From NCBI GenBank assembly GCA_017440575.1, contig JAFSGY010000114.1, positions 1 through 47,179 of the forward strand: a stretch of DNA of 47,179 nucleotides, read 5' to 3'. The notes beneath the pieces are model-generated. The model ran no database searches. It was not told where the DNA came from and worked only from the letters and a program-made list of their open reading frames with translations. The DNA is from Lachnospiraceae bacterium (GTDB lineage: Bacteria; Bacillota; Clostridia; Lachnospirales; Lachnospiraceae). Positions within the stretch are counted from its first letter, which is position 1. Each line of letters begins with the position of its first letter. The position numbers and the translations under genes are program-made. Below are positions 536 through 41,431 of the stretch, piece after piece.

Positions 536-543
536 CAAGACGT

Positions 544-2310: not shown

Positions 2311-2317
2311 GTATGAT

Positions 2318-2352: not shown

Positions 2353-2403
2353 ATGTAATTTTTTTATTTTAACAAATTATTTAAAAAAAATATGTAAATC
2401 TAT

Positions 2404-2429: not shown

Positions 2430-2489
2430 ATATATCGTAAAAGCATTAACATAAAGAGTTTATGCAAGATAGAAACATAAAGCAGGAGA

Positions 2490-2538
2490 TAACACGGACA
2501 GAAAAAGACATATCGTGTTAGCTGACAAAAGAGGGGAG
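2490..2538 (+). promoter_or_regulatory. Flagellin 2 leader hairpin with CsrA-like sites
   Basis: A 7-bp stem TAACACG (2490-2496) / CGTGTTA (2514-2520) has a GGA at its 5' loop junction (ACACGGACA), resembling a CsrA binding site. A second GGGGA is part of the ribosome site at 2531-2538. Two GGA sites, one over the Shine-Dalgarno sequence, is the known arrangement in CsrA-repressed hag leaders. The regulatory role here is inferred. Confidence 0.4.
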
Positions 2539-2546
2539 TATAGAAC

Positions 2547-4265: not shown

Positions 4266-4275
4266 TATTTAGAGT

Positions 4276-4315
4276 AATTAACGCCAGTCACCGTTATGTG
4301 TGATTGGCGTTAATT
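4276..4315 (+). other. Long intercistronic hairpin without T tract
   Basis: A 16-bp stem (4276-4291 with 4300-4315, one G-T pair) encloses an 8-nt loop between flagellin 2 and flagellin 3. It is followed by GTAAGAG rather than a run of T, so it is not a standard intrinsic terminator. It could stabilise the upstream mRNA, mark a processing site or give partial attenuation, lowering flagellin 3 relative to flagellin 2. Confidence 0.6.
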
Positions 4316-4340
4316 GTAAGAGAATGAGGGGAGAGACATA

Positions 4341-15496: not shown

Positions 15497-17074
15497 ATGG
15501 TAAGATATTTTAATGTGACCGGAGCATGTTATCCGGATGAACATTATATGGTAAAACTGGATAAGCGATTACAAGCCATTAAAACTATGGTGGAACAAGG
15601 AAAATATATAACCATTAATCGTGCAAGACAGTATGGAAAAACTACAACACTTTGGGCGCTTCATGCTTATTTGCAAGAAGAATATGCAGTAGTACTTATG
15701 GACTTTCAAAGGATGAGTACTGCGATTTTTCGGGATGAATATACTTTTTCAAAAGCATTTATGAAGGATTTTTTGAAGGTGGTTCGCAATAGAAATATGC
15801 AGATTACAGGATTGCCTGAGCCGGTTCTGATGGAGTTGGAAATGCATGCTGCAAAGGAAAATTACAATCTAAGAGAGCTTTTCGAAGATTTGAGTGATTT
15901 ATGCTATAAAGCCGAAAAGAAAGTTGTACTTGTTATTGATGAAGTAGATAGTGCATCAAATAATGAGGTCTTTTTGGATTTTCTTTCTCAGTTACGTGAT
16001 ATGTACTTGCAAAAACGTGTGAAAACCACATTTCAGTCGGTAATTCTTGCAGGGGTATATGATGTTAAAAACTTAAAAAGCAAGATTAGAGGAGAAGAAA
16101 AAGGAAATCGATTAAATAGTCCTTGGAATGTAGCAGTGGATTTAAAAACAGATATGAGCTTTGGAATAGAAGATATTAAGGAAATGCTTTCGGAGTATGA
16201 AGGTGAGCATAAAACAGGAATGGATATTTCAAAGATAGCTACCTTAATCTATGATTATACATCGGGTTATCCGTTTCTCGTATCACGTATCTGTAAAATT
16301 ATGGATGAAGAATTAGGTGAGCAGGCGAATTGGACTGATGCAGGCGTGAAAACTGCTGTCAAGGAACTTCTGAAGGAAGCCAATACACTGTTTGATGATA
16401 TGCGTAAAAAGATTGTGGATGATGAGAAGCTGAAAAAGATGTTATATGAAATTCTTTTTCTTGGAAAAACGTATGCATACAATCCGGATAGTGAACAGAT
16501 TGATAAAGGCAGAATGTTTGGATTTATCAAAGAGGAAAATGGAAATGCTGTGATTGCAAACCGCATCTATGAAACACGCCTTTATAATATGTTTTTGTCA
16601 GAAGAAATGTTGAATAGTGATACCTATGAAGCAGCACTGATTGGAAAGAATCAGTTTGTTCAAGATGGTAAATTGAATATGAACTTAGTAATGAAGAAGT
16701 TCGTAGAACACTTTAGTGAAGTATATGCAGATGAAGAAGAGAAATTCATAGAAGAAAATGGAAGAAGACTTTTCTTATTATATTTAAAGCCAATTATCAA
16801 CGGAACAGGTAATTATTATATCGAAGCCAGAACCAGAAATATGCAGAGAACAGATGTGATTATTGATTACTGTGGAAAACAGTATATTGTGGAACTCAAA
16901 ATCTGGCGGGGTAATGCATATAATGAGCAGGGAGAGCAACAATTGCTGGAGTATATGGATGCGTATCATTTGGATAGAGGATATTTACTCAGTTTTTGCT
17001 TCAATAAAGACAAAGAAGTTGGGGTAAGAGAAGTGAAGTATGAAGACAAGACGCTGGTGGAGGCAGTTGTGTAG
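15497..17074 (+). CDS. AAA-like ATPase with C-terminal PD-(D/E)XK nuclease domain (525 aa)
   Basis: Residues ~20-330 form an AAA-like P-loop domain with Walker A INRARQYGKTTT (about 39-50) and Walker B KKVVLVIDEVDSA (about 141-153). The C-terminus (about 440-500) has a PD-(D/E)XK fold signature: RTDVIIDYCGKQYIVELK, supplying Asp and E-x-K, then a GEQQLLEYMDAY helix. This architecture is widespread and multi-copy in Lachnospiraceae and Bacteroidetes. Its function is not established, and roles in mobile elements or defence are speculated. The ATG immediately follows the TAG of the truncated relic with GGAGTGGGAG upstream. Compared with the usual R-P-R-R-x-G-K-S P-loop it has RARQYGKTT, a distinct subfamily. 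Confidence 0.82.
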   Translation: MVRYFNVTGACYPDEHYMVKLDKRLQAIKTMVEQGKYITINRARQYGKTTTLWALHAYLQEEYAVVLMDFQRMSTAIFRDEYTFSKAFMKDFLKVVRNRNMQITGLPEPVLMELEMHAAKENYNLRELFEDLSDLCYKAEKKVVLVIDEVDSASNNEVFLDFLSQLRDMYLQKRVKTTFQSVILAGVYDVKNLKSKIRGEEKGNRLNSPWNVAVDLKTDMSFGIEDIKEMLSEYEGEHKTGMDISKIATLIYDYTSGYPFLVSRICKIMDEELGEQANWTDAGVKTAVKELLKEANTLFDDMRKKIVDDEKLKKMLYEILFLGKTYAYNPDSEQIDKGRMFGFIKEENGNAVIANRIYETRLYNMFLSEEMLNSDTYEAALIGKNQFVQDGKLNMNLVMKKFVEHFSEVYADEEEKFIEENGRRLFLLYLKPIINGTGNYYIEARTRNMQRTDVIIDYCGKQYIVELKIWRGNAYNEQGEQQLLEYMDAYHLDRGYLLSFCFNKDKEVGVREVKYEDKTLVEAVV

Positions 17075-17490
17075 GACAAGGTAAATAATCAGAAAAAAAT
17101 AAAAAAACTCACAAATTCTATAGCAATTCATACAAAACTGTGTTACACTATATGTAAACATAAAAGGCTTGCATAATATAGAAGCAGGCACACAGGGAAG
17201 GTTCCGGATGATAGTGCATCATCCAATATACTGGGGAGTAATACTTATTAGATAAGTGTAAAGGAATACTGCTGTTAAATGTTTGTATAGTGTAAAAGGC
17301 ATAATAGAAAGCCTCGGCAGAGAAGACTTTATATGAATTGCATCAGCTGTAAAGGCAGCGTGTTTTTGTTATACAATAGTAAGTGTAATACGACTGGATA
17401 TATAAATGGAAGTGACCTGTGAAAATGGGGCACTTTTTGCTTTCAAGGAAAGCGTAAACACATTCTTTGTTTCAATTAAGAGGGGAATAT
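17075..17490 (+). other. 416-nt gap: probable promoter and structured leader for the island
   Basis: No gene is seen. A weak promoter is possible: TTCATA (17127-17132), 16-nt spacer, TATATG (17149-17154). Downstream lie two small perfect hairpins, GGATGAT/ATCATCC (17206-17224) and ACTTAT/ATAAGT (17243-17257), and an inverted pair TTACACTATA (17143-17152) / TATAGTGTAA (17286-17295). The motifs AAAAGGC and CATAATA recur near 17162 and 17294. A second promoter-like TGTTATACAAT lies at 17367-17377. This fits a long leader for the 29-kb island, but I recognise no known riboswitch in it. Confidence 0.35.
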
Positions 17491-20010
17491 ATGAGAAAAC
17501 AGGGAAAACAACTGGCGTTAGAAATCGTACAGATATTACATCAGACACATGAAAAGATAAAGAAAGCAATCGAAAATAGAGAAATAGCTTATGCGCAAAA
17601 TCTGTTAACAGAGTGCCAGCAGGGAATGATACAGTTAGGAAATTCCATTGAGGAAACAGAGGGAGAGGGCTTTGTAACCGTTGGATACATTGAGGAGTAT
17701 TGCGAAAGAGCTTACCAGTATTTTGAAGAATTGGAAAAAGAACAGAATGGCAATGCTAACAAAATATATAAGGTATTGCGTAAATATCTGATTCAGGTGG
17801 AAAGCAGCATTAAAAATGATATTCCAGTGAAATTGGAAATGGTTTTTTTACCATATAAAGCCTCTATGTGGGATTCTTTGGAAAGTGTTTGGAAGGCAGC
17901 AGATGCAGACGAAAACTGCGATGCCTATGTAATACCGATTCCATATTATGATAAGAATCTCGACGGCAGCTTTAAGCAGGAGCATTGGGAAGGGAATCAA
18001 TATCCGGCAGATGTGCCGATTACAAGATATGACCAATATGATTTTGAGAAAAGAAAACCCGATGTGATTTTTATTCATAATCCATACGATGACTGGAACA
18101 CAGTAACCAGTGTACATCCATTTTTCTTTTCGAAGAATCTGAAACAGTTTACAGACTGTCTGGTATATATTCCTTACTTTGCAACAGCAGGAGGTATGAG
18201 TGAGGGACAGTCTCTTTGCCCGGCGTATATTCATGCGGACTATATTGTAATTCAGTCAGAAAAATATAGAAAATATTATGATCCAAGAATACCGGATAAG
18301 AAGTTTCTAGCATTTGGCTCTCCGAAATTCGACAGTGTGATTCATAAGTGTCAGAATCCACCGGAACCACCCGAAGAGTGGAAAGAGAAAATGCAGGGAA
18401 AGAAGGTATACTTCTATAACACCAGTATAGCAGGAATGTTGCAACATACGGAGAATTTCCTGAAAAAGATGGAGTATGTATTCAATACTTTTCAGGGAAG
18501 AGAGGATGCTTGTTTACTATGGAGACCACATCCGCTTTTGGAATCAACCTTTGATTCTATGAGAAAGCAGTATAAGCCTATGTATGAAGCATTGAAGAGA
18601 CGATTTGTAGAGGAGAAAATTGGTATCTTAGATATGACCCCAGACATTGAAAGTACCATAGCACTCTGCGACGCATATATCGGAGATGCAGGAACGAGTG
18701 TAACTTCGTTATTTGGAGTTGCAGGTAAACCGATATTTATTTTGAATAACAATATTCATGCATTACCACAGGAGAATGACTGGAGAGGGGAAATAATCAG
18801 AGGTTTTTACCCGGATGGGAATAACCAGTGGTATGTGACACAGGGGAATAAGTTGTATTACTCTCCCGATAATGATTTTCATTATGAGTATTTCTGCGAT
18901 TTGTGTGAATATGCGGGTGGTGGGTACTATGGCAAAGCGATAGAGTTTGAAGATAAAGTATATGTATGCCCGCAGAATGCACAGGACATTTTAATCGTGT
19001 CGAAGGATAAGAGTATTAAGAAGATTGAGCTGAATAAGCATGTGGAACAGGTGGGAGCGTTTTTTAATACTTGGCAAATTGGAGAATGTTTATTCGTGCT
19101 TCCGGACCGATATCCGTTTTTGGTTCGGCTGAATATGAAAACGCAAGAGATTCATTATTTATCGGGTATCAGAGATATTTATGTAACTATGGCAGCAGGT
19201 GAAAGACGCATTGGTGGATCTGATGTATGGGGAGATAAATTAGTACTTGGATCTGCGGATGGGAAGAAGCTGCTAATGATAGATGCGGTTACTTTGAAAG
19301 TGGACATTGTAGATGTTGATTTTGAGGGTGGTATCTTAGCTGTCAAACTGGATAAGGATAAAATATGGCTGTTACCATATGAAGGTACTACGATTGGTTG
19401 CTGGGATGTAACAACAGGAAAAATGGAAAAATATGATGCTATGGTGGAAGGTTTGGAGTGTACCCAAAGACCGTTGGGAATGAAATGTATGTCGAGACCA
19501 TTTGGAATGCCGGCTATGTGCGATAAAAAACTTATATTAACACCTTGTTGGGGCAATAAGATGGTGTGCTTTGATAAAGAAAGTGGTAGAGCAGAGGAAT
19601 GGGTACCACCATTTGTATTGAAAATGCAAAGCGAGAATGGTTATGTACCAATAAGGAGTGTAGGATATTTTGTGGAGCAGATAGATGAAGTGGTATACAG
19701 GTATTATGATAGTGCATTCAGAAAGATGTATGATATCAATATCGAAACAAAGGAATGGCAGGAAGTAGAGGTTGCATTTGATAAGAAGGATATGGAAGTG
19801 AATGCGGCCAGCTTTGCAGAACAGTCTCAGTGGATGCAGTATTGCTGTAATGAGAATGCGTTCCGTACGTTGAAGGATTTCTTGGATGATAATATTACAG
19901 GAGCTTCGTATGATGAGAAAAAACAGATAGAAGCTTTTTCAAAGATAAATGCAAGTATTAATGGGAATTGCGGTGAGAAGGTATACCGCTTTGTAATGGA
20001 GAATGTGTAA
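17491..20010 (+). CDS. CDP-glycerol glycerophosphotransferase-like protein fused to a beta-propeller-like domain (839 aa)
   Basis: Start at the ATG at 17491, 6 nt after AGGGG; a TTG at 17467 lacks a site. Residues 1-110 are helical with coiled-coil character. Residues ~113-420 resemble the GT-B-fold glycerophosphotransferase (TagF/TagB) family: IPYFATAGGMSEGQ, LLWRPHPLLESTF (about 343-355), and DAGTSVTSLFGVAGKPIF (about 396-413), corresponding to the R-x-HP and D-x-SS sites. Residues ~430-760 are repeated beta strands with Trp/Gly blades (ENRIG-type, YVCPQNAQDILIV, KLVLGSADGKKLLMID), likely a propeller. The last 70 residues are helical. It overlaps the next gene by 1 nt (TAATG), and that gene would supply CDP-glycerol or a related donor. 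The propeller is not part of classic TagF and may bind glycan or protein acceptor. Confidence 0.72.
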   Translation: MRKQGKQLALEIVQILHQTHEKIKKAIENREIAYAQNLLTECQQGMIQLGNSIEETEGEGFVTVGYIEEYCERAYQYFEELEKEQNGNANKIYKVLRKYLIQVESSIKNDIPVKLEMVFLPYKASMWDSLESVWKAADADENCDAYVIPIPYYDKNLDGSFKQEHWEGNQYPADVPITRYDQYDFEKRKPDVIFIHNPYDDWNTVTSVHPFFFSKNLKQFTDCLVYIPYFATAGGMSEGQSLCPAYIHADYIVIQSEKYRKYYDPRIPDKKFLAFGSPKFDSVIHKCQNPPEPPEEWKEKMQGKKVYFYNTSIAGMLQHTENFLKKMEYVFNTFQGREDACLLWRPHPLLESTFDSMRKQYKPMYEALKRRFVEEKIGILDMTPDIESTIALCDAYIGDAGTSVTSLFGVAGKPIFILNNNIHALPQENDWRGEIIRGFYPDGNNQWYVTQGNKLYYSPDNDFHYEYFCDLCEYAGGGYYGKAIEFEDKVYVCPQNAQDILIVSKDKSIKKIELNKHVEQVGAFFNTWQIGECLFVLPDRYPFLVRLNMKTQEIHYLSGIRDIYVTMAAGERRIGGSDVWGDKLVLGSADGKKLLMIDAVTLKVDIVDVDFEGGILAVKLDKDKIWLLPYEGTTIGCWDVTTGKMEKYDAMVEGLECTQRPLGMKCMSRPFGMPAMCDKKLILTPCWGNKMVCFDKESGRAEEWVPPFVLKMQSENGYVPIRSVGYFVEQIDEVVYRYYDSAFRKMYDINIETKEWQEVEVAFDKKDMEVNAASFAEQSQWMQYCCNENAFRTLKDFLDDNITGASYDEKKQIEAFSKINASINGNCGEKVYRFVMENV

Positions 20011-21347
20011 TGACAAAAGTGATAACATATGGAACCTTTGATTTGTTTCATGAAGGACATTACCGCCTTCTACAAAGGGCGAAGGCACTCGGAGATTATT
20101 TAATTGTAGGTGTTACGACAGAGAACTATGACCAGGCGAGAGGAAAACTTAATGTAGTAGATTCCTTAATGACAAGAATTGAAAATGTGAAGAAAACTGG
20201 CTTTGCCGATGAAGTTATCATAGAGGAATCCATAGGACAAAAGGTAAGTGATGTCAAAAAGTATAAGGTAGATATCTTTACGGTAGGCTCTGACTGGATA
20301 GGCCACTTTGACTATATGGCAGAGTACTGTAAGGTGGTGTATCTGGAAAGAACCAAGGATGTCTCCAGTACGATGCTTCGCAATCAGAACTTTAAGATTC
20401 AGAGGATTGGTATCATAGGAACAGGACGAATCACTGGAAGATTTCTTATGGAGTCTAAGAGTGTTAGCGGCGTAAGTGTGCAAGGGGTATATAATCCTCA
20501 TGTGGAGAGTGCAAAACGCTTTGCAAAGAAATATGGTATTGAAGTATATGAAACAAAAGAGCGATTTTTTGAAAATACAGATGTCATTTATGTGGCATCA
20601 CCGCATGAGACACATTATGAGTATGTAAAGGAAGCGCTTCTACATGACAAGCATGTGCTTTGTGAAAAGCCTTTTACACTACAAAAAGAACAGGCAGAAG
20701 AGCTTTTTGCGATTGCAAAGGAAAGAAATCGTATTCTGTTTGAGGGTATTAAGACAGCGTATTGTCCGGGATTTAACAAGCTTATTGATATTGCCTGCAG
20801 TGGTTTGATTGGTAATATACGTTATATTGATGTCTGCTTTACTAAGCTGGAAAATAAAAATACAAGAGAACTTACTGATACGATGTATGGTGGAAGTTTT
20901 CTGGAACTTGGAAGCTATTGCCTACTGCCGGTGTTCAAACTTTTTGGTTGGGAATATGAGGATGTTGATTTTGAAAGTATCTATGGTACGGGAAAGATTG
21001 ATCTTTTTACCAAAGCATCCTTCAAGTTCGAGAAAGGTCTGGCAACGGTTACTTGTGGTTTGGGTGTAAAGAGCGAAGGCAGGCTATTAATAGCAGGCAC
21101 GAAGGGATATATCGTAGTAGATGCTCCGTGGTGGAAAACAACATATTTTGAAGTGCATTTTGAGGATACAACAAGAGTGGAAAAGTATTCCGATAGATTC
21201 CTAGGTGATGGACTTCGATATGAGATTAGCGATATGCTGAACCAGATTAATGGAAATAATAAAAGTGAATTCAAATTGACAAGAAAAGAAAGTGTTGCAA
21301 TGGCTGGAGTAATGGAAGCATTTCTTAATAAAGAAGGCAAAGGATAA
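20010..21347 (+). CDS. TagD-like cytidylyltransferase fused to Gfo/Idh/MocA oxidoreductase (445 aa)
   Basis: Residues 1-125 are a glycerol-3-phosphate cytidylyltransferase-like domain: TYGTFDLFHEGHY (HxGH-type site) and RTKDVSSTMLR (matching the R-T-x-x-x-S-T signature). Residues ~131-445 are an NAD(P)-dependent oxidoreductase: IGIIGTGRITGRF Rossmann loop, VIYVASPHETHYEYV, and VLCEKPFTL with the EKP motif of this family. The first half would make CDP-glycerol or another CDP-polyol. The second half would oxidise or reduce a sugar or polyol, perhaps the precursor of the CDP product. It is coupled to the preceding transferase by a TAATG overlap. Confidence 0.85.
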   Translation: MTKVITYGTFDLFHEGHYRLLQRAKALGDYLIVGVTTENYDQARGKLNVVDSLMTRIENVKKTGFADEVIIEESIGQKVSDVKKYKVDIFTVGSDWIGHFDYMAEYCKVVYLERTKDVSSTMLRNQNFKIQRIGIIGTGRITGRFLMESKSVSGVSVQGVYNPHVESAKRFAKKYGIEVYETKERFFENTDVIYVASPHETHYEYVKEALLHDKHVLCEKPFTLQKEQAEELFAIAKERNRILFEGIKTAYCPGFNKLIDIACSGLIGNIRYIDVCFTKLENKNTRELTDTMYGGSFLELGSYCLLPVFKLFGWEYEDVDFESIYGTGKIDLFTKASFKFEKGLATVTCGLGVKSEGRLLIAGTKGYIVVDAPWWKTTYFEVHFEDTTRVEKYSDRFLGDGLRYEISDMLNQINGNNKSEFKLTRKESVAMAGVMEAFLNKEGKG

Positions 21348-21351
21348 TAAA

Positions 21352-22038
21352 ATGAAAATTTGGGCACATAGAGGGTGGAGCCAAAGGCATCCGTAGAATG
21401 CCTTGCTGGAATTTGAAAAGGCAATACAGATAGAAAAGCTGACAGGCATAGAGCTTGATATACAGCTTAAAAAGGATGGTCGACTAGTGGTTATACATGA
21501 TGAAAGAATGGATTGTACTACAGAAGGTATAGGTTATGTAAGGGATTATACATTGTCATAACTAAAAAGATTACACATCTATGCAGATGATAATTCGACG
21601 CAGCAGATACCGACTATGGAGGAAGTCTTTGATTTAGTCGACAATAGATTGAACCAAGGTATGAAACTTAATATAGAACTCAAAAACAGAGTATATCCAT
21701 ATCCTGGAATGGAAGAAAAGATAGTAGAGTTGGTGGCGAGAAGGGGATACACAGATAGTGTATTCAAGCTTCTATGCAAAGTCTATAGAAAAAATAAAAC
21801 ATGGAAGTAAAATCCGAACTTGCTATATTGGATAGTAAGGTGTCAGATTGCATGTATAAGCTAAAGGGAGGTTGTGGAGCTACGGCGATTCATCCGTTCT
21901 GATGACAAATGGACTTGCCTAAGAAAGTTTTGGAGGGGTATACAGTCAGAACATGGATGGGGTTCATTTCTTTTTTTAGAAATACTAAGATACATGAAAT
22001 GTGTAGAATATATACTAACGAGAAGGAAGTACTACTAT
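21352..22038 (+). pseudogene. Glycerophosphodiester phosphodiesterase (GDPD) pseudogene
   Basis: From ATG 21352 the frame reads KIWAHRGWSQRHP-stop-NALLEFEKAI, GIELDIQLKKDG and VVIHDERMD, the HRG, E-x-D and H-D-E landmarks of GDPD. TAG at 21394-21396 replaces the Glu of the usual PEN motif. TAA at 21559-21561 interrupts LS-x-LKRL. A frameshift near 21765 moves the SFYAKSIEKIKHGSKIRT segment into another frame, and later pieces (KGGCGATAIHP, DLPKKVLEGYTVRTW) are in yet another frame. GDPD cleaves glycerophosphodiesters, so it probably once trimmed or recycled the glycerophosphate handled by the two genes before it. At least four disabling changes make function very unlikely. Confidence 0.88.
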
Positions 22039-22103
22039 AAATATTTAAAAAGATAGGACTATGGCTCATAAAGCGTACTAAAAAATGTAAGAAGGTTTTG
22101 GTA

Positions 22104-22928
22104 ATGGTTAAGTTAGATGATAAGATGCTGCGACAGCTTCAATTGATACAATTGGAAATGCTGATAGAAGTAGATAGGATTTGCAAAAAGTGTGGAATAA
22201 AATACAACATTATTGCTGGAACGTTATTAGGTGCAATTCGCCATGGCGGATATATTCCTTGGGATGATGATGCAGATGTTGCTTTATTAAGACCGGAATA
22301 TGAAAAATTTCGCAAGGCAGTTAAGACGGAATTAGATACAACTAGGTTTTATTTTCAAGATCATCGTAGTACAAGAGGATATCGTTGGGGATATGGCAAA
22401 TTACGATATAAGAATACCCTATTTTTGCGAGAACATCAGGAGCACATGCCTTATCAACAAGGAATATTTATTGATATTTTTCCACTAGATCATGTGTCAG
22501 ACAACTATCTGCTACGATGTCTACAGAATTTTGAATGTTTTTGCGTTCGAAAAGTCTTATGGTCTAAAGTAGGGCAAGTGGCAGAACGAAATATCTCGCT
22601 GCAGATGTGCTATAAGCTATTGGCTCTTATTCCGGAAAAAGTAATTTGGAAGTATTATCATCGTATGGTAAAAAGAACAAATCAAAAAGAAACAAAGTGG
22701 GTTAGAATACTGATGTTTCCAACGCCGAATCGGTCGTATGGCTATGTTAAGAGATGGTATCAATATAGCCAAAAAGTGATGTTTGAAGGCATATTATTTG
22801 ATGGAATTAAGGAATATGATGCATATTTATCCTTCAAGTTTGGTAACTATATGGAATTACCGTCACCAGAAAAGCGAAAGGTGCATCCGGTTAGTAAGTT
22901 GATAATACAGGACATACAATATGAATAA
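22104..22928 (+). CDS. LicD family phosphotransferase (275 aa)
   Basis: The nucleotidyltransferase-fold signature of LicD/fukutin proteins is clear at residues ~35-55: GTLLGAIRHGGYIPWDDDAD, with the Asp cluster that binds metal. Family members transfer phosphocholine or other phospho-alcohols from CDP-activated donors onto glycans. Here a CDP-glycerol-type donor is equally possible, since TagD- and TagF-like genes lie upstream and no choline kinase or uptake gene is seen. ATG 22104 is preceded by GAAGG at 8 nt, preferred over TTG 22098. The 3' end overlaps the next gene by 8 nt within TATGAATA, indicating translational coupling. Confidence 0.88.
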   Translation: MVKLDDKMLRQLQLIQLEMLIEVDRICKKCGIKYNIIAGTLLGAIRHGGYIPWDDDADVALLRPEYEKFRKAVKTELDTTRFYFQDHRSTRGYRWGYGKLRYKNTLFLREHQEHMPYQQGIFIDIFPLDHVSDNYLLRCLQNFECFCVRKVLWSKVGQVAERNISLQMCYKLLALIPEKVIWKYYHRMVKRTNQKETKWVRILMFPTPNRSYGYVKRWYQYSQKVMFEGILFDGIKEYDAYLSFKFGNYMELPSPEKRKVHPVSKLIIQDIQYE

Positions 22929-23340
22929 TATAAAAAACGAAGAAAATCGTAAGTGCATTATACAAGCGATTGAGAAGTGTATAAACTTAGGTAGAAATAA
23001 ATTTGTAATCTATACCTATGGTGATTTGGGAAAATATACGGAGAAGATATTAAGAGAAGAGTATCATCTTTTGCCGGAATATAGAATTGATAATTATAAA
23101 AGTGATGGGAAAAGTATTCTAACGTTAGATGAAGCAGCAGAACAGAAAAATCACGAGGTGGTCTTTTTGATTTGTAGCGATAACAGAAAAGTATTTTACG
23201 AGATTAGAAGTGCAATTTATTCTAAAATGAGAGAAATGTTTATTGTAGATATATTTGAAGATAGAGCGACAAATATATTCGCATTGGAAGATGCACTGCA
23301 GAAGATTAATACGTATGTGGGGGAATTAGAATATGAATAG
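22921..23340 (+). CDS. Small stand-alone Rossmann-like protein (139 aa), function unknown
   Basis: Not a recognised enzyme. After an N-terminal helix it has FVIYTYGDLGKYTEKIL (strand, Gly loop, helix; residues about 28-44), YRIDNYKSDGK (strand ending D-N), and VVFLICSDNRKVFYEIR. This is the same strand-Gly loop-helix / D-N / (I/V)xxxxxD pattern seen as a fused domain in many proteins of this island, but here the first Gly is replaced by Tyr. It overlaps LicD by 8 nt upstream and the glycyl radical enzyme by 8 nt downstream, both inside an almost identical TATGAATA. It is therefore made together with them and may be an accessory subunit. This is inference. Confidence 0.7.
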   Translation: MNNIKNEENRKCIIQAIEKCINLGRNKFVIYTYGDLGKYTEKILREEYHLLPEYRIDNYKSDGKSILTLDEAAEQKNHEVVFLICSDNRKVFYEIRSAIYSKMREMFIVDIFEDRATNIFALEDALQKINTYVGELEYE

Positions 23341-25486
23341 ACAGGAGGCATTGTCTACAGAAAGATTAGATACTATATATTATTTGAATCATGTAGAGAA
23401 TGCTAATCATGTAGAGAAAAAAGCGTATTCTATGGCGTTACATATGCATATTAAAAACATCAGTCAACAAAAAAGTAAAATGATATATGGAAGCAGAAGC
23501 AGACAGATTACGATAAATATGTATCCAACCTTGGATGAAGAGTTGAAATTGATTACGCAGATGGAGGAAGAAGAAAAAGCGAATATAAAGATTGCCCAAG
23601 CAATTGGATTGCTTAATAGAGCGCCAGGTGCGCATTTGATTCCAGCGTATGATGTGCTCTTACAGGAAGGAATTCAAACGAGATTAGATAGCATAAAAGA
23701 GCTTTATCGAAGTAGTTTGCATGATGCAAAGAAAGAGTATTATAAAACAGCGTATATTTTACTAAAAAGCTTTCAACAATTGATTAATCGTTACGGCAAG
23801 CAGGCGCAAGAAGAAATGAAACAAGCCACAGGTAAAGAAAAATTACAATTACTGCGTATTGTGGAAGCGTGTAATCATATTAAGAAAAAGAAACCGAGAA
23901 CTTTTTTTGAAGCGGTGCAATTAGTAAGCTTTACACATGAGTGTATAGTAGATGAAGCAGGTTCGGGTAGCATATCCTTTGGAAGGATCGACCAGTATCT
24001 ATATCCATATTACAAGGAAGATATAGAGAATGGCAGATTACAACAGGCAGAAGCACAGGCAATTGTAGTAGCCTTCTTTGAAAAGATTGCAGAGCATGCA
24101 GGAGGATGGCAAAACATTACATTAGGTGGCAAAGCAAAAGATGGAACTGATTTATGTAACGAACTTACGATAATGTGTTTAAAGGCTTCTGCAATTGTAA
24201 AGAAAGACCAGCCACAGATTTCATTGCGTGTGCATGATAACATGTCAGAAAGGGTATGGAATGAAGCTTTGCAACTTGTGAAAACAGGAATGGGATTTCC
24301 AGCATTTTATAACGATGATGTGGCTGTAAGTGCAAAGCAAAGCGTTGGAGTATCAGAAGAAGATGCATGGAATTATGGAATAGTTGGTTGTGTAGAAATT
24401 ACTTCAGGTGGTAATGAATATTCACATGCAGAAGGAATACGCATTAATTGGCTTAAGTTGTTAGAGCTGATGCTACACAATGGGCAATGTCTGTTGACGA
24501 AAAAAAAAGTTGTGTTACAGCAAGTGTATGAAGAAGATGCATTAGATACCATAGAATCTTTTGAGATATTTTATGAATGGTATAAAAAAGAACTTGTGGA
24601 GTTAACGAAAAAAATAGCATATTTCATAGATGAGGCCTGCATAGCGTATTCGTTGCAATGGCCAGTTCCTTTTACTAGTATTTTTATGAATCAATGTCTG
24701 GAAAAAGGGTGTGATGTCACTAATAATGGCACAAAATATAATAATTTAACCATGAATTGCGTCGGGATTGCCAGTACAATCGATGCGTTGCAAGTGATAG
24801 AAGAATTGGTATTCGAACAAAAGAAAATCAGATTGTCTCAATTGGCGAAGGCACTCAAACATAATTTTGAGGGAGAGTATGAGAGTATTCGACAAGCTTG
24901 TATATTGTGTAAAAAATATGGCAATAACGAAGATGCGGTAGATCAAAAAGCAGCAGAATTAATCGCTTTATTTTGTAAAACCTTAGAAGAAATACAACCA
25001 CAACATGTCACAGGAAAATATCAGGCTGGATTTTATACATCACATTTTCATGCGACGATGGGACAGCTAACAGGAGCATCTGCAGATGGAAGACGAGCTG
25101 CGGAACCAATGTCGGCATCACTTTCTCCAGCAGCAGGTAAAGATAAAAACGGCTATTTGGCAGTATTAAATTCTGCCAATAAGATTAAGATGAATTGTTT
25201 TGCCAATGGTACAGTATTAGATGCAAAATTTTTGCCTTCTTTTTTTGAAGATGCGAGAAATATAGAAGGATTGAAGCAAAGTATATTAACCTATTTTCAA
25301 CGGGGGGGCATGGAAATTCAATTTAATGTAGTAGATAAAGCAACCTTAGTGAAAGCGCAACAGCATCCGGAAGAATATGCAGATTTGATGGTGCGGGTAT
25401 CTGGATATAGTGCATATTTTGTAGATTTGAGTAGAAGCTTGCAAGATGAGATTATGATGAGAATAGAGAATTCTTACTGTACATAG
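23333..25486 (+). CDS. Glycyl radical enzyme of the PFL / glycerol-dehydratase type (717 aa), substrate unknown
   Basis: The catalytic core is complete. YGIVGCVEITSGGNEYSHAEG places the thiyl Cys at residue 353 with Glu355 two residues on, the C-x-E arrangement of dehydratases and lyases (glycerol dehydratase, CutC) rather than the Cys-Cys of pyruvate formate-lyase. RVSGYSAYFVDL places the radical Gly at 691, 26 residues from the end, as in PFL. FGRIDQYLYPYY and FYNDD are other family landmarks. The N-terminus is roughly 80 residues shorter than in glycerol dehydratase, and carries a duplicated NHVEN/NHVEK (14-bp repeat at 23387 and 23405). No canonical GRE activase is adjacent. Context (LicD, CDP-polyol genes, two radical SAM genes) suggests a glycan- or polyol-linked substrate. 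The enzyme would be oxygen-sensitive. Confidence 0.88.
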   Translation: MNRQEALSTERLDTIYYLNHVENANHVEKKAYSMALHMHIKNISQQKSKMIYGSRSRQITINMYPTLDEELKLITQMEEEEKANIKIAQAIGLLNRAPGAHLIPAYDVLLQEGIQTRLDSIKELYRSSLHDAKKEYYKTAYILLKSFQQLINRYGKQAQEEMKQATGKEKLQLLRIVEACNHIKKKKPRTFFEAVQLVSFTHECIVDEAGSGSISFGRIDQYLYPYYKEDIENGRLQQAEAQAIVVAFFEKIAEHAGGWQNITLGGKAKDGTDLCNELTIMCLKASAIVKKDQPQISLRVHDNMSERVWNEALQLVKTGMGFPAFYNDDVAVSAKQSVGVSEEDAWNYGIVGCVEITSGGNEYSHAEGIRINWLKLLELMLHNGQCLLTKKKVVLQQVYEEDALDTIESFEIFYEWYKKELVELTKKIAYFIDEACIAYSLQWPVPFTSIFMNQCLEKGCDVTNNGTKYNNLTMNCVGIASTIDALQVIEELVFEQKKIRLSQLAKALKHNFEGEYESIRQACILCKKYGNNEDAVDQKAAELIALFCKTLEEIQPQHVTGKYQAGFYTSHFHATMGQLTGASADGRRAAEPMSASLSPAAGKDKNGYLAVLNSANKIKMNCFANGTVLDAKFLPSFFEDARNIEGLKQSILTYFQRGGMEIQFNVVDKATLVKAQQHPEEYADLMVRVSGYSAYFVDLSRSLQDEIMMRIENSYCT

Positions 25487-25552
25487 GGGATATTCTAAAA
25501 AATGGCTAAAATAAGCGAATATTCATAGCCTGATATAAAGGAGAACTAACTA

Positions 25553-26794
25553 ATGGAAAGAAGGATAATGGACAAACCGTTGATTAGTGTGATTGTGACT
25601 GTGTATAACTTAGAAAAATATCTAGACAAGTGTGTAAAAAGCATCGTTGCACAAACTTATTCCAATCTGGAAATTATTTTGGTAAATGATGGTTCACAAG
25701 ATAATTCGGGAAAAATGTGTGAAGCATACGCAAAAGAAGACGCACGAATTAAAGTGTTGCATAAAAGCAATGGTGGAGCAGTTAGTGCTAGAAAAGCAGG
25801 CATTGAAGTAGCAACAGGAGATTATATTGGTTTTGTGGATGGAGATGATTGGATAGAGGATTGCATGTATGAGTCTATGGCTCGCATGTGTATGGAGGAA
25901 GCGGTAGATATTGTTTCTATAGAAGATGTTCGTGAATATGCAGATGGAAGAAAACAGTGTGAGTATATACGATTGCAAGAGGGAGTATATAAAGGTGAAG
26001 CGTTTGAGACCTATATATTGTCTAATATTATCGATACCAATCACTTTTTTCAATGGAATATACCCATGCATGGATGGCAGCACATATATAGACGAGAATT
26101 AATGAAAAAATGTTTTGAACAAATCGATACACGTATACGAAGAGGCGAAGATATGATGTTTGCCTTATCCTGCTATTTAGAGGCTAATTCGGTAGCCTTG
26201 ATTAAGAAGCCTTTTTATCATTACAGACAGGTCATGAACTCGGCTAGAGGGACAGGTACCAAGAAGAACCTGGAAGGACTGCTATACTTGTCGCAAAGAT
26301 TACATGAAATGGCGCAGAAAAATGAAAGGCAGAAGGTAGCAGTACAGGAACAAATAAGACAATGTATCTTCTATACAATACTATGGTCTGCGTATGAGGT
26401 ATTTCTTAGTAAAGAGGATGATGAATTATTTCCGTATGGTGTGAAAAAAGGGAGGAAAATAGCACTTGTTGGTGCAGGAGCATTTGGTAAAAGAGTTTAT
26501 CACCGAATGCAAGAGTTTGGACTGTGCAGGATAGAAGCATGGGTAGACAATGGATGGGAATTATATGCAGAACAAGGATTACCGGTGCAATCGATGAAAG
26601 TCTTACAGGAAGTAGATATTGATTATGCGGTGATTGCTGTATTAAGTCAGGATGCACAAAAACAACTAGTGGAACAAATCGAAAGAAAAGGTATAGAAAA
26701 AAATAAGATTAAAGTAATTAATCAAAAAGATATGACAGAAGATAAAATGCAGGTTTTGTTGGAGCGTTTAGAAGAAGCATTAAGAAGCGTATAG
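25553..26794 (+). CDS. GT2 glycosyltransferase with C-terminal Rossmann-like module (413 aa)
   Basis: The GT-A domain at residues ~8-230 has ISVIVTVYNLEKYLDKC, LVNDGSQDNSG, GGAVSARKAGI and FVDGDDWIEDCMYE (DxD-type). The C-terminal part (about 299-395) is a separate Rossmann-like module: KIALVGAGAFGKRVYHRM, WVDNGWELY, YAVIAVLSQDAQKQLV. The start at 25553 follows AAGGAG with 9-10 nt spacing; the in-frame ATG at 25568 is possible. It is cytosolic with no membrane helix. It lies between the glycyl radical enzyme and the first radical SAM gene. Confidence 0.85.
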   Translation: MERRIMDKPLISVIVTVYNLEKYLDKCVKSIVAQTYSNLEIILVNDGSQDNSGKMCEAYAKEDARIKVLHKSNGGAVSARKAGIEVATGDYIGFVDGDDWIEDCMYESMARMCMEEAVDIVSIEDVREYADGRKQCEYIRLQEGVYKGEAFETYILSNIIDTNHFFQWNIPMHGWQHIYRRELMKKCFEQIDTRIRRGEDMMFALSCYLEANSVALIKKPFYHYRQVMNSARGTGTKKNLEGLLYLSQRLHEMAQKNERQKVAVQEQIRQCIFYTILWSAYEVFLSKEDDELFPYGVKKGRKIALVGAGAFGKRVYHRMQEFGLCRIEAWVDNGWELYAEQGLPVQSMKVLQEVDIDYAVIAVLSQDAQKQLVEQIERKGIEKNKIKVINQKDMTEDKMQVLLERLEEALRSV

Positions 26795-26816
26795 AAGCAT
26801 TAGGGGGACGAAAAAC

Positions 26817-28013
26817 ATGATTAAGAATATGGCAGATTTTCAAAAAGTGGTAAGGGAAAATGAAAAGATATATTTTGTGTATGTGGATGATGTTTGTGAA
26901 GGAACCATTGATTTATTAGTCCAAAGTGGAGAGGGATATAAACTGAAGGCTTGTGTGACTTCGGGCACGTTTATGGATTGTGAGATACGAGGATATGAAG
27001 TAAAAAGTATAGAACATCTAGAACAAGATGCTTGTGTATTATTGACCTGTAATACTAGACAAGACGAAATGGTTGCTCAGTTGGAGAAAAAAGAGATTAA
27101 GAAAGTGGAATTCTTGGAGGAGAATTTCAAGTTTTTTGCTTTAAAAAGGTTGAAAAACAGAAGACGTGGTGAAGATACTGAATTTTTAATCAATAAAATG
27201 CGTGATCAGATGCTAAAATTTGTACCAAAGCCGTATATGGAGTATTTGGTGTTTAATATCTTGGACCATTGCAATTTGAGGTGTAAAGGATGTGACCATT
27301 TCGCATGTGTAGCAGATGAATATATTATTCCGCATGAAAGACTTCATAAGGATATTGTAAGAATGTCAGAGATATTACATGGAGATAATGTAATGAAAAT
27401 CGCTGTTATGGGAGGAGAACCGTTGTTGCATCCGGAGTTATTGGAGATATTAAAGGATGTAAGAAAGCATTTTCCATATGCGATTATTAGACTGACAACA
27501 AATGGATTATTATTATTACAACAAAACGAAGAATTTTGGAAAACTTGTCGTGAGTATGATATTACGATAGTGAATACAAAATATCCAATTCAGCTAGATT
27601 ATGCAAAAATGAAAGAAGTAGCAAAGGAGCAAGGAGTTAAGTTCCAATATTTTGAAGGTACGGGAGATGATACTGTTAAAACGAGTTCTAAAAAAACCAT
27701 TACATTAGATGGAACGAATGATCCCGTGAAAAGCTTTGCACAGTGCTATATTTCTAATTACGGAAACTTTGTAATGGAAGGAAAATTTTATGGTTGCCCA
27801 TTTTCCTGTCAGTCCTATCGTATTTTCAATCAAAAATTTGGTAAAAATCTGCGCATGACAGAGAAAGATTATTTAGATATTTATCAAGTGAAGGATATGC
27901 AGGAACTTTTTGAGTTCTCTGCTAAGCCAAGACCATATTGCAGATATTGTAGTGGTATAGACAGATGGCATGAATGGGAGCGTAGTAAAAAGGATATTTC
28001 TGAGTGGGTGTAA
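26817..28013 (+). CDS. Radical SAM protein with extra C-terminal Cys cluster and N-terminal Rossmann-like module (398 aa)
   Basis: Residues ~15-105 are a degenerate copy of the island's Rossmann-like module. The radical SAM barrel starts at DHCNLRCKGCDHF, giving C152-x3-C156-x2-C159 for the 4Fe-4S cluster, then MGGEPLLHPELLE (GGE motif) and RLTTNGLLLL. Further Cys (AQCY, GCPFSC, CRYC near the end) suggest a SPASM-like auxiliary cluster. Its last ~30 residues (PYCRYC...HEWE.SK) match those of the next gene, so the pair are paralogs. It lacks the DGPGxR-type motif of GRE activases. The substrate is unknown; oxidation or rearrangement of a sugar or of flagellin is possible. Confidence 0.85.
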   Translation: MIKNMADFQKVVRENEKIYFVYVDDVCEGTIDLLVQSGEGYKLKACVTSGTFMDCEIRGYEVKSIEHLEQDACVLLTCNTRQDEMVAQLEKKEIKKVEFLEENFKFFALKRLKNRRRGEDTEFLINKMRDQMLKFVPKPYMEYLVFNILDHCNLRCKGCDHFACVADEYIIPHERLHKDIVRMSEILHGDNVMKIAVMGGEPLLHPELLEILKDVRKHFPYAIIRLTTNGLLLLQQNEEFWKTCREYDITIVNTKYPIQLDYAKMKEVAKEQGVKFQYFEGTGDDTVKTSSKKTITLDGTNDPVKSFAQCYISNYGNFVMEGKFYGCPFSCQSYRIFNQKFGKNLRMTEKDYLDIYQVKDMQELFEFSAKPRPYCRYCSGIDRWHEWERSKKDISEWV

Positions 28014-28027
28014 AATGGAGGAATAAG

Positions 28028-28882
28028 ATGGGGTTAGCATATGATTTGCAGGTAGAGGCGGAAAGAAGAAAATTAAATCTAGAACAATCTAGAACGATAG
28101 AAGTAAGAAAAAAATTAAAATTCGAAATACATATTACAGAGCATTGTAATTTGAATTGTAAGTATTGTAATCATTTTTCGCCACTAGCTAAGAATACATT
28201 TTTGGATGTGGAAGAATATGAGCGTGATGTCAAAAGATTATCGGAATTATTTGGTGGAGAAATGCAACAGATAAAGTTACTTGGCGGGGAGCCTTTGTTA
28301 CATCCACAGATAAATGAGTTTATTTATTTGACTAGAAAATATTTTCCGATCGGGACAATTAAAATACTGACCAATGGTACTCTATTGCCGAGGATGAAAG
28401 ATGAATTTTGGAAAGTTTGTCAGGATACGAATACCATCGTGTATTATACCAAATATCCGATTGCGCTTGATGTGGAGAAAATAAATGAGCAGGCTAAAAA
28501 GTATCAGGTACCACTAGAAGTATTTAATATGGAAGATAATATAAAAACGTTGATTCATGAACCAATTGATTTGAGTGGTAAGCAAAATGCTAAGAAGAAT
28601 TTCTATGATTGCTATCGACCTAATTATTGCATTACATTAAAGCATGGTGTGATTTATACCTGTCATAGGGCAGCGCATATACATTTGCTAAATGAGTATT
28701 TTGGTGAAAATATACCGCTTAGTGCTAAAAATGGAATCAATATTTATGAAGCAAAGAGTGGCCAGGAGATTTTAGAATATCTGATTAAACCGATTCCTAT
28801 GTGCGCTTATTGTGATAGAGAGCATATTACAACAGATCATGAATGGGAGATTAGTAAAAGAGAACGAAGTGAATTTATATAG
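28028..28882 (+). CDS. Radical SAM protein, shorter paralog (284 aa)
   Basis: The start is set at ATG 28028, 6 nt after GGAGG (28017-28021); the upstream in-frame GTG at 28004 has no site. TEHCNLNCKYCNHFSPLA gives C40-x3-C44-x2-C47, then LLGGEPLLHP and KILTNGTLLP. The C-terminal Cys set (YDCY, NYC, YTCHRA, MCAYC) suggests an auxiliary cluster, and the end (CAYC...HEWEISK) matches the preceding protein. It lacks that protein's N-terminal module. Its size is near that of GRE activases but the diagnostic GPG segment before the cluster is missing, so activation of the nearby glycyl radical enzyme is only a hypothesis. Confidence 0.85.
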   Translation: MGLAYDLQVEAERRKLNLEQSRTIEVRKKLKFEIHITEHCNLNCKYCNHFSPLAKNTFLDVEEYERDVKRLSELFGGEMQQIKLLGGEPLLHPQINEFIYLTRKYFPIGTIKILTNGTLLPRMKDEFWKVCQDTNTIVYYTKYPIALDVEKINEQAKKYQVPLEVFNMEDNIKTLIHEPIDLSGKQNAKKNFYDCYRPNYCITLKHGVIYTCHRAAHIHLLNEYFGENIPLSAKNGINIYEAKSGQEILEYLIKPIPMCAYCDREHITTDHEWEISKRERSEFI

Positions 28883-28894
28883 GGGAGAATATCG

Positions 28895-30742
28895 ATGTGT
28901 GGGATTTGTGGATTTGTGACCAAAAAAAGAATAGATATTAATGTATTAAAGGCAATGAATCATACGTTAATACATAGAGGACCTGATGATTGTGGAGAAG
29001 AGATCTATGCGATAAAAAATGAATGGCAGGTAGGATTTGGTCATAGAAGGCTCTCTATTATGGATTTATCAGAAAGAGGACATCAGCCTATGCATTCGAT
29101 AGATGGCAAAATTAGTGTGATTTTTAATGGAGAAATCTATAATTTTGAAGAGATAAAGGAGATGCTAAGAGATTATCCGTTTCGGACAAAGTGCGATACA
29201 GAAGTTATTCTAGCTGCGTATGTAAAGTGGGGTAGTCAATTTATCAATAAGCTAAACGGCATGTTTGCAATAGCACTACTAGATCGGGAAGAGAATGCTG
29301 TTTATTTGTATCGGGATAGAATAGGGAAAAAACCATTGTTTTATCATACAGATACAATGGGCAATCTAGTATTTGGCTCTGAAATCAAAGCAATTTTGCA
29401 GTTTCCTGATATAAAAAAAGAAGTAAATACCCAAGTAGTAGGCAGATATTTGAGTAGAAGGTATGTTGTAGCACCTGACACTATGTATCGAGAAATTCAA
29501 AAATTAGAACCAGGTTCTTTTTTGAGATTTCATGAGGGAATGATTACGACGCATAAGTATTGGAGTGTCGTTGAGCAATACAGTGCGTATAAGACCCAAC
29601 AGATTATAAGTTATGAAGAAGCTAAGAAAGGATTAGAAAATGAAATTCATAAGGCGATTTCAACTCGTTTAATCGCAGATGTTCCAGTTGGCGCTTTTAT
29701 TAGTGGAGGATATGATTCATCGGCAGTATGTGCGCTTGCACAAAGTCAAATGAATAAACCGCTTAGTACGTTTTGCATTGGTTTTGAAAATGAAGCGTAT
29801 GATGAAGCTATCTATGCAAGAAAAATTGCGCAACATATTGGTTCTAATCATACAGAGATGTATATCACAGAGCAGGACGTATTGAATCTGGTAGATAGTA
29901 TTCCTGTATATTATGACGAACCGTTTGCAGATCCATCTTTATTACCAACCATGTTTGTATGTGAATTGGCTAAAAAAAATGTTTCCGTTGTACTAACTGG
30001 GGATGGCGGAGATGAATTATTTGGTGGATATGATATTTATACAATTTTGCAAAAGGCGCAGGCATTCAAGGAGAGCGGAGTTGATTATACTACCATAAAT
30101 CCAAAATCAGTAGAATATCGTGTATTGACAGAAGACGTACGACCAGAGAATAAGACACAGGCAGGTATTTTATGGTATGTAGATCATATCAATAGAATAT
30201 TATTGCAGCCTGTAGATAATTTTTACTATGAATATGAGTCGAAATATCAGGAATCCAGATATGATGTTACACGTATGTTATTAGATACTGAGACGAGATT
30301 AGTGGATTATATCTTAGTAAAAGTAGACAGAGCATCTATGAAATATGCATTAGAATGTAGGTGTCCGTTATTGGATAAGAATGTGGTGGAATATACATAT
30401 CGAATTCCAGCAGATTATAAGAATGATCATGGACATACCAAGAGAATTTTAAAGGATATCGCGCATGATTATATTCCTAAGGAATTACTTGACAGACCAA
30501 AGAAAGGTTTTGGACCACCGATTGACCAATGGTTAAGGGGAGCTTTGAAAAATCAATTATTGGATTATGTGGATTTGAATTTCTTGCGTAACCAAGGTAT
30601 TTTCAAACCGGAAGAAACCAAAAATGTGGTGGAGCAGTATTTGCAAAATGGAGATACAGGTAAGTGGAGTGGAAAAAATTTCTCCAAGATTGTATGGCCG
30701 TATTTTACATTTCAACAGTGGTATTGTAGGTATATGAATTAA
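28895..30742 (+). CDS. Asparagine synthase (glutamine-hydrolysing) family amidotransferase (615 aa)
   Basis: MCGICGF puts the class II glutaminase nucleophile at Cys2. HRGPDD, FNGEIYNFEE and the ATP-pyrophosphatase loop ISGGYDSSAV (about 268-277) follow, then VVLTGDGGDELFGGYD and KVDRASM. Length and domain order fit AsnB (about 600 aa). In surface-glycan loci members of this family amidate sugar carboxylates or make unusual amides, so a role in amidating a glycan component is likelier here than free asparagine synthesis. It is tightly spaced between a radical SAM gene (12 nt) and a GT4 gene (17 nt). Confidence 0.9.
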   Translation: MCGICGFVTKKRIDINVLKAMNHTLIHRGPDDCGEEIYAIKNEWQVGFGHRRLSIMDLSERGHQPMHSIDGKISVIFNGEIYNFEEIKEMLRDYPFRTKCDTEVILAAYVKWGSQFINKLNGMFAIALLDREENAVYLYRDRIGKKPLFYHTDTMGNLVFGSEIKAILQFPDIKKEVNTQVVGRYLSRRYVVAPDTMYREIQKLEPGSFLRFHEGMITTHKYWSVVEQYSAYKTQQIISYEEAKKGLENEIHKAISTRLIADVPVGAFISGGYDSSAVCALAQSQMNKPLSTFCIGFENEAYDEAIYARKIAQHIGSNHTEMYITEQDVLNLVDSIPVYYDEPFADPSLLPTMFVCELAKKNVSVVLTGDGGDELFGGYDIYTILQKAQAFKESGVDYTTINPKSVEYRVLTEDVRPENKTQAGILWYVDHINRILLQPVDNFYYEYESKYQESRYDVTRMLLDTETRLVDYILVKVDRASMKYALECRCPLLDKNVVEYTYRIPADYKNDHGHTKRILKDIAHDYIPKELLDRPKKGFGPPIDQWLRGALKNQLLDYVDLNFLRNQGIFKPEETKNVVEQYLQNGDTGKWSGKNFSKIVWPYFTFQQWYCRYMN

Positions 30743-31989: not shown

Positions 31990-32012
31990 GTTTGAAAAAG
32001 GGGAATGAGCAG

Positions 32013-33263: not shown

Positions 33264-33299
33264 TAATCCAAAGACTGTAAATGTATTAATTGGGAAGGA

Positions 33300-38302: not shown

Positions 38303-38309
38303 CGAGGAT

Positions 38310-39893: not shown

Positions 39894-39918
39894 CAAAATA
39901 TGGGAAGGGTTAAGAGAT

Positions 39919-41430: not shown

Positions 41431-41431
41431 G

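Follow-up and report, generated by a model that had tools for sequence, protein, structure and literature searches.

Why should an oxygen-sensitive glycyl radical enzyme (GRE) be encoded among genes that build a surface glycan? The characterized GREs with a C-x-E active site serve, as far as we know, the breakdown of small nutrients. The question is raised by a gene on contig JAFSGY010000114.1 of the Lachnospiraceae bacterium assembly GCA_017440575.1; the window analysed is the entire contig of 47,179 nucleotides, in which a C-x-E GRE stands in an island of flagellin and glycan genes. Our reading, to which we give a probability of about 0.5, is that the biosynthesis of surface glycans by such islands has taken over an eliminase-type GRE from a metabolic lineage of these enzymes, the island in the window being associated with flagellin. 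The existence of a clade of GREs in surface-glycan islands is real, conserved and, as far as our searches reach, undescribed, and a role of the enzyme in glycan building is suggested by its clade, its motifs and its linkage in three genomes. An earlier note on this DNA had placed a GRE in a glycan island and proposed a CDP-polyol or glycan-linked diol as substrate; the general idea stands, and the specific CDP-polyol substrate is weakened.

The gene and the residues on which the argument turns are as follows, PFL denoting pyruvate formate-lyase.

23333..25486, plus strand: GRE of 717 amino acids, with a PFL-like barrel and a C-terminal glycyl radical domain.
24389..24397, plus strand: codons for Cys353-Val354-Glu355, the C-x-E eliminase motif, aligned to glycerol dehydratase.
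25403..25405, plus strand: codon for the radical Gly691 (RVSGYSA), in a column that is glycine in 102 of 102 GREs.
23633..23635, plus strand: codon for His101, in the common beta-1 substrate site column of the alignments.
24440..24442, plus strand: codon for Arg370, in the column of CutC Tyr506, HypD Tyr450 and PFL Arg435 in the alignments.

The frame is open through all 717 codons, and its product matched PFL-like PF02901 with 401.8 bits (E = 8.2e-120) and Gly_radical PF01228 with 104.3 bits (E = 6.1e-30), both far above cut-off; these E-values exclude chance for the assignment. Barrel and glycyl radical domains, Gly691 within an RVxG[YF] loop and Cys353 are features of the GRE superfamily, and Cys353-Val-Glu355 conforms to the C-x-E motif by which the accessible text of PMC8473560 defines GRE eliminases. 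The earlier note had given the same positions for Cys353, Glu355 and Gly691, and the motif read bears them out. The RVSG loop, considered as a special PFL-like trait, was dropped, as it occurs in 25 of the 102 GREs and hence is not diagnostic.

To which GRE family does the enzyme belong? No NCBIfam equivalog cut-off was passed. The best equivalog, (2S)-3-sulfopropanediol dehydratase, gave 383 and 327.7 bits (NF048009 and NF048011, cut-offs 1000), the hydroxyproline dehydratase HypD 370.2 bits (NF043068, cut-off 1100), CutC 356.7 bits (TIGR04394, cut-off 1050) and PFL 101.3 bits (TIGR01255, cut-off 994.2), the enzyme having one cysteine and no adjacent Cys-Cys. Against TIGR01774, the PFL2/glycerol dehydratase subfamily, the GRE of the window scored 468.3 bits and that of Bacterium D16-56, introduced below, 445 bits, both under the cut-off of 678.2; the match to the NCBIfam PFL2-3 model begins at model position 133, residue 77. 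The two best matches in the Protein Data Bank (PDB) were glycerol dehydratase (1r8w, 336.4 bits) and propane-1,2-diol dehydratase (5i2a, 321.7 bits). Trees were built from 102 GREs, and from 40 of those 102 with nine PDB enzymes; 105 loci had been searched for a GRE open reading frame (ORF) of at least 400 residues, and four without one were left out. In both trees the GREs of the window, of a second genome of the same genus (G025) and of D16-56 formed one clade (99, starred), whose sisters are the enzymes of L036 (genome G391), L080, L076 (G709) and L077 (G690), the seven rows being held together at 99, starred. The island clade is separate from glycerol, propanediol and hydroxyproline dehydratases, CutC, PflD and YbiW, and in the tree with PDB enzymes the GRE of the window does not group with 1r8w and 5i2a. 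The earlier note had taken the enzyme to stand outside the characterized clades; the trees agree for those that they include (IslA and HpsG are in neither) and nowhere place it inside a clade of characterized small-molecule metabolism.

Residence in a glycan island is not peculiar to the window, in line with the earlier note: it recurs in G025 and D16-56, in both with an activase, and conservation with metabolic genes only was not what we saw, glycan genes accompanying the GRE in three genomes. The G025 GRE is 43% identical to that of the window (E = 3.6e-165), G025 being the only other carrier among 38 genomes of the genus, and the D16-56 enzyme (L079) is 41% identical. In the G025 island (L034/L035) genes for a TagF-like protein, a cytidylyltransferase-oxidoreductase fusion (TagD::MocA), an intact glycerophosphodiester phosphodiesterase (GDPD) and LicD stand upstream of the GRE in the order found in the window; the upstream order of G025 and D16-56 is TagF, TagD::MocA, GDPD (in G025), LicD and GRE activase. 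The two share a collinear block of LicD, GRE activase, glycosyltransferase family 2 (GT2), radical SAM, GRE, PF01973, radical SAM/SPASM, FkbM, KdsB, KdsA and KdsD, in which the GT2 genes were placed by tblastn and eye and one additional ORF separates KdsA from KdsD in G025. The GRE, GT2, radical SAM and FkbM proteins of the two are 60-68% identical and RpoB 78%. As the RpoB of G025 is 82% identical to those of G391 and G059, both from other genera of its family, D16-56 is not close to G025, and the linkage of GRE and island has thus persisted in genomes that stand well apart.

The activases of G025 and D16-56 (244 and 253 residues, 63% identical to each other) pass NCBIfam TIGR02494, 'glycyl-radical enzyme activating protein', with 246.4 and 239.2 bits (cut-off 174.35). 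A short activase lacking ferredoxin-type cysteines was considered as a special trait and dropped, since 30 of 54 loci bearing an activase-like ORF, both islands included, are without CxxCxxCxxxC; the activases of L076 and L077 do have such cysteines. G025 and D16-56 each contain exactly two PF02901 proteins, the island GRE and a PFL-type protein (722 and 741 bits) that, given its near full coverage, is taken as the canonical PFL. In the assembly of the window, which is 78% complete and has no rpoB match, so that absences there mean little, the GRE is the sole PF02901 match.

Which substrate might such an enzyme accept? We take His164, His281, Ser282 and Asp447 to line the pocket of glycerol dehydratase, with His164 numbered by counting on the 1r8w alignment, and PFL Arg435 presumably serves pyruvate. 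Of this pocket the enzymes of the window, G025 and D16-56 keep His164, as His101; His281 is replaced by Gly, Lys and Lys, Ser282 is Ser, Gly and Gly, and Asp447 is Glu (Glu367 in the window), so that the set characteristic of glycerol and propanediol dehydratases is not kept in full. Arg370 is present in all seven members of the island and sister clade and in 17 of 102 GREs overall; its column is arginine in 8 of 8 PFLs and phenylalanine in the glycerol and propanediol dehydratases. Thus the island enzymes resemble these dehydratases in fold family, C-x-E motif, beta-1 histidine and Glu367, and differ from them in clade, in His281 and Ser282, in Arg370 where those have Phe, and in a glycan rather than fermentation neighbourhood. 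CutC and HypD are likewise C-x-E eliminases, and HypD shares the beta-1 histidine (His160); unlike them, the GRE of the window is far under their cut-offs, has His where CutC has Asp216, and has Arg in the Tyr506/Tyr450 column. With PFL it shares this arginine and the RVSG loop, in contrast to a single Cys with Glu where PFL has Cys-Cys-x-Ser. The roles of the HypD and CutC residues at the beta-1 site, and of CutC Tyr506 and HypD Tyr450 as the substrate-facing tyrosine, are described in the accessible text of PMC8473560, which also places IslA Arg189 and HypD Arg156 four residues ahead of the beta-1 site. Arg96, five residues ahead of His101 and hence off by one from that position, is shared by the three island GREs, the four sisters having His instead. 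Arg370, in the context of His101 and Arg96, suggests an anionic substrate, possibly an anionic polyol or sugar. The Arg370 column is arginine in a further clade as well, whose GREs (L085, L108, L118, L122, L125, L135, L141, L145, L151 and L152; 703-725 residues, L145 770) are for the most part short.

A mechanism can be proposed on this basis. An activase would install the radical on Gly691, from where it would pass to Cys353; the Cys353 thiyl would abstract hydrogen from a hydroxyl-bearing carbon, and Glu355 would aid the loss of the neighbouring hydroxyl or another leaving group, as in known C-x-E enzymes, giving a deoxy aldehyde or ketone unit. The substrate would bear a phosphate or carboxylate (a phosphorylated polyol, sugar phosphate or sugar acid), as hinted by Arg370 and perhaps Arg96, and the product would then be reduced or otherwise modified and attached to the glycan by transferases of the island. 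A bolder and more tentative proposal, to which we lean slightly less than even, is that this is the first GRE of bacterial glycan biosynthesis, a radical eliminase that converts an anionic precursor (polyol or sugar) into a deoxy or aldehyde unit and forms an exchangeable cargo of flagellin and surface-glycan islands; this part of the coat would then be made only where oxygen is absent. If so, radical deoxygenation would join the chemistry of flagellin and capsule sugars, oxygen-avoiding bacteria would gain a coat that aerobes cannot make by such a route, and the gene would serve as a marker for locating the modified glycan. The conserved set of GRE, small activase and Arg370 pocket in three genomes renders the question testable, one carrier, Bacterium D16-56, being on record as a named strain. 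In the literature searched, to which most subscription journals do not belong, no title or abstract among the papers listed, a study of FliC regulation in C. difficile included, describes a GRE in glycan biosynthesis, in agreement with the earlier note, which knew of none in flagellin or surface-glycan modification; nor does the accessible text of a review of gut GRE activases (PMC11574389).

Is the substrate then a glycerol unit delivered by the genes upstream? The neighbours concerned are these.

17467..20010, plus strand: 847-residue protein, TagF-like by eye, present in all three GRE islands; no Pfam match.
20010..21347, plus strand: glycerol-3-phosphate-cytidylyltransferase-like domain fused to a Gfo/Idh/MocA oxidoreductase (TagD::MocA).
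About 21350..22090, plus strand: broken GDPD gene, with an early in-frame stop seen by eye.
22098..22928, plus strand: LicD-family transferase (PF04991, E = 3.6e-35).
22921..23340, plus strand: 139-residue ORF for a Rossmann-like domain, whose homologue is fused to the GRE N-terminus in G025 and D16-56.
25553..26794, plus strand: GT2 with a C-terminal Rossmann-like (PglD_N-like) domain.
26817..28013, plus strand: radical SAM protein with an N-terminal Rossmann-like domain.
28004..28882, plus strand: radical SAM protein.

Pfam supports the surroundings described in the earlier note, namely a TagD-like domain and an oxidoreductase (one fused gene) and LicD, among glycosyltransferases; its TagF-like label for the gene at 17467 is a name given by eye, as neither this protein nor its D16-56 relative has a Pfam match at E 0.001. 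The chain of overlaps it noted from LicD to the GRE is real: by coordinates LicD and the 139-residue ORF overlap by 8 bp, as do that ORF and the GRE start, which suggests coupled translation of the three. It could be argued from this arrangement, and from the position of the GRE downstream of TagF, TagD::MocA and LicD in all three islands, that the enzyme dehydrates glycerol 3-phosphate, CDP-glycerol or glycan-linked glycerol, and that the MocA domain reduces the aldehyde, with TagF or LicD as the transferase for the deoxy polyol phosphate. His101 and C-x-E are shared with glycerol dehydratase, Arg370 could hold a phosphate, and there is a precedent for the pairing of a cytidylyltransferase with a reductase in the capsule CDP-6-glucitol of C. 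jejuni (accessible text of PMC10918830). We consider this unlikely, not only because His281 and Ser282 are not retained across the three enzymes. Flagellin-island TagF-like enzymes need not carry glycerol, CDP-threonine having been proposed in C. difficile (accessible text of PMC10714395), and the CDP module bears no sign of a changed substrate.

The last point derives from islands that have the module. TagD::MocA matches at E 1e-90 were found in 52 of 397 family genomes, some covering the MocA part only, and the 20 top-scoring loci from the 51 other genomes were fetched (10.6-19.9 kb each). At E 1e-6, weak matches included, 15 of the 20 have a TagF-like gene, 15 LicD, 13 GDPD (71-76% identical to the G025 gene in 10, weaker in three more) and five flagellin. 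None of the 20 has a GRE match; therefore the CDP module works without a GRE. In trees of TagF (14 of the 20 loci), TagD::MocA (20) and LicD (13), each with the three GRE islands, the latter are interspersed among GRE-less ones, with two, three and three label changes at weak support; G025 and D16-56 pair in the TagF tree (95, starred), where the position of the window is not settled, and the starred branches of all three trees are compatible with a single origin of the GRE islands. Since the TagF, TagD::MocA and LicD of GRE islands are, in these weakly supported trees, not separate from those of GRE-less ones, the CDP-polyol substrate of the earlier note loses ground. The simplest reading is of a common chassis in which the GRE is a rare cargo whose product need not be a CDP-activated polyol. 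The type A flagellin glycan pathway of C. difficile (CD0240-CD0244) uses, by the hypothesis of PMC10714395, a TagF-like transferase and a CTP transferase to load a CDP-activated small molecule, and differs in that the accessible text mentions no GRE. The flagellin glycosylation island of Geobacillus is also flagellin-linked, with tagD in one strain (accessible text of PMC5109656), and differs in that neither 'radical' nor 'formate' occurs in the main text of that paper.

A different alternative arises downstream of the GRE. KdsB, KdsA and KdsD follow it at a distance of 4 to 7 genes in G025 and D16-56, and the GRE might act on arabinose 5-phosphate or another 3-deoxyulosonate precursor; a Maf-type flagellin transferase would then use the product, a modified sugar that is nonulosonate-like. 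In D16-56, KdsB (TIGR00466) and KdsA (TIGR01362) score above the cut-offs of their equivalog models; the candidate for KdsD does so for the KpsF/GutQ subfamily model TIGR00393 and not for the KdsD equivalog. A PF01973 (MptE-like) gene, presumably of the family of the Maf flagellin transferases, adjoins the GRE in both genomes. One clostridial Maf can use Kdo on flagellin (accessible text of PMC11339370). KdsA was not found in the assembly of the window, incomplete as it is, and KdsA and KdsD matches also occur in the GRE-less locus L165; the idea is very unlikely, and the Kdo branch as a general partner of the GRE was rejected on the first of these grounds. The PF01973 gene and, in the window, the three flagellins with numerous transferases give the islands features of flagellin or surface glycosylation; the link to flagellin made in the earlier note is direct only in the window, and the flagellins found in G025 and D16-56 sit on other contigs. 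The proximity of KdsB, KdsA and KdsD-like genes to PF01973 (L079:15507-18284 and L034/L035) also makes Kdo-type flagellin glycosylation possible in these strains, and the G025 island encodes a 746-residue chain (L034:6856-9096) of a methyltransferase, a Rossmann-like domain and a second cytidylyltransferase-like domain.

The island GREs may also be marked by a domain of the islands. The enzymes of G025 and D16-56 are extended at the N-terminus by a domain of some 130 residues. This domain is a homologue of the separate 139-residue ORF of the window (25% identity to the G025 N-terminus, E = 1e-10), and the hidden Markov models (HMMs) used here found it on none of the 99 remaining GREs. By the first HMM, 10 of 24 window ORFs, the 139-residue one included, carry a small Rossmann-like, PglD_N-like domain, as do 34 of 271 ORFs in 12 of the 20 other loci. 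In the window it occurs at 22921-23340, 25553-28013, 31992-34523, 37208-42670 and 44294-45619, at either end of enzymes, its partners being GT2, GT4, GT-D, a PF04464 transferase (CDP-glycerol glycerophosphotransferase family), TupA, FkbM and radical SAM; it is perhaps a shared docking or carrier-binding module. The first HMM gave 39-57 bits to the GRE-linked domains, which were in its training set. A held-out HMM put them above all other proteins, of which the next had 7.5 bits. When six domains of the window alone served as seed, the G025 domain was found at E 1e-5 and the other two at 0.05 and 0.2. Profile-profile comparison gave probabilities of 74-86% for the three taken one by one and 87% for all of them jointly, with eight other controls below 3%. 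The GRE-linked domain is likely Rossmann-like and probably related to the island domain family.

Several observations weigh against recruitment into glycan biosynthesis. Against the held-out HMM the GRE-linked domains score slightly lower than members, at 12-13 bits (E 4e-4 to 7e-4 among 69 proteins), and a generic NAD domain control gave 72% in the profile-profile comparison, nearly level with them. The GRE islands found number three only: at E 1e-100 no further island GRE occurs in the 36 other genomes of the genus; four of 397 family genomes matched at 1e-110 (those of the window, G391, G414 and G052); three of 392 order genomes matched at 1e-150, the two besides that of the window not within an island; and none of 320 other class genomes did at 1e-160, scoring in the family, order and class searches being limited to two or three candidates for each genome. 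The G391 match stands in a metabolic-looking locus, that of G052 on a 5.9-kb contig too short to judge, and the G414 GRE has its own activase in a locus without TagF, TagD::MocA or LicD matches. In a contig collection a first scan with a single protein as query gave no match; of the best 80 of at least 476 relatives one, D16-56, lies in an island as called by island-gene matches at 1e-8 within 10 kb on each side of the GRE, and another, L112, has a KdsA-like match alone (32%). Furthermore, the radical SAM, GT2 and FkbM proteins of the window show only weak similarity to their counterparts beside the GRE in G025 and D16-56. The cargo at large does not therefore amount to a single conserved pathway; radical SAM was dropped as a conserved partner, at 23-32% over parts. 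In the G414 locus (L037:8059-19824) a GRE of another clade near PflD shares its strand with genes, named by eye, that resemble those for mannose-1-phosphate guanylyltransferase, phosphohexomutase and GDP-fucose synthase and lie some 4 kb away.

The four sister GREs, moreover, sit in metabolic-looking loci (names by eye): L036 and L080 adjoin ABC transporter, PfkB-type kinase and ADP-ribosylglycohydrolase-like genes, L076 a TRAP-type permease, and L077 lies near aldo-keto-reductase-like genes. Metabolic descent is therefore likely, and the island GRE probably derives from a catabolic or metabolic enzyme. It could even be a catabolic GRE that landed in an island whose content varies strongly among relatives and that still serves small-molecule fermentation. 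Linkage retained in three genomes and the extra Rossmann-like domain make this quite unlikely, as does the island itself, among whose ORFs no shell protein or microcompartment, aldehyde dehydrogenase or transporter gene was recognized by family search and, for the rest, by eye. The sister locus of L036:10272-12542 and L080:7229-9520 is itself conserved, with two ADP-ribosylglycohydrolase-like genes by eye, and may represent an uncharacterized GRE pathway.

Is the copy in the window still at work? No GRE activase match was found in the window; the only full-length relative in its 78% complete assembly is a PflA on a 3.5-kb contig (TIGR02493, 300 bits, cut-off 231.75), beside a broken fragment of uncertain kind. 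GDPD has no plus-strand ORF of at least 80 residues, tblastn giving 68% over 21352-21762 only, and the N-terminal domain is detached from the GRE as a separate ORF. Taken together these losses mean that the copy could be idle, and the GRE of this strain might be a dying gene. We doubt it: all 717 codons are open and the catalytic residues are complete, the branch leading to the window (0.98) is not longer than the path from the node to G025 (0.72 + 0.37), and PflA might substitute as activase in an assembly that is incomplete.

The contig runs from three flagellins through glycosyltransferases, the TagF-like gene, TagD::MocA, broken GDPD, LicD and the 139-residue ORF to the GRE, 3' of which lie transferases, radical SAM proteins, an asparagine-synthase-like amidotransferase, an FkbM methyltransferase, a TupA-like ATP-grasp protein and two PF04464 genes. 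A scan of 17000-29000 for promoters and terminators gave sites no more frequent than in shuffled sequence. The flagellin genes (526-6032, Flagellin_N matches), upstream of the glycan genes, are three long tandem copies (594, 572 and 563 residues) whose central parts differ by eye, and at the far end of the island, at 45637-46491, there is a citrate lyase ligase-like domain (PF08218, E = 5.5e-58).

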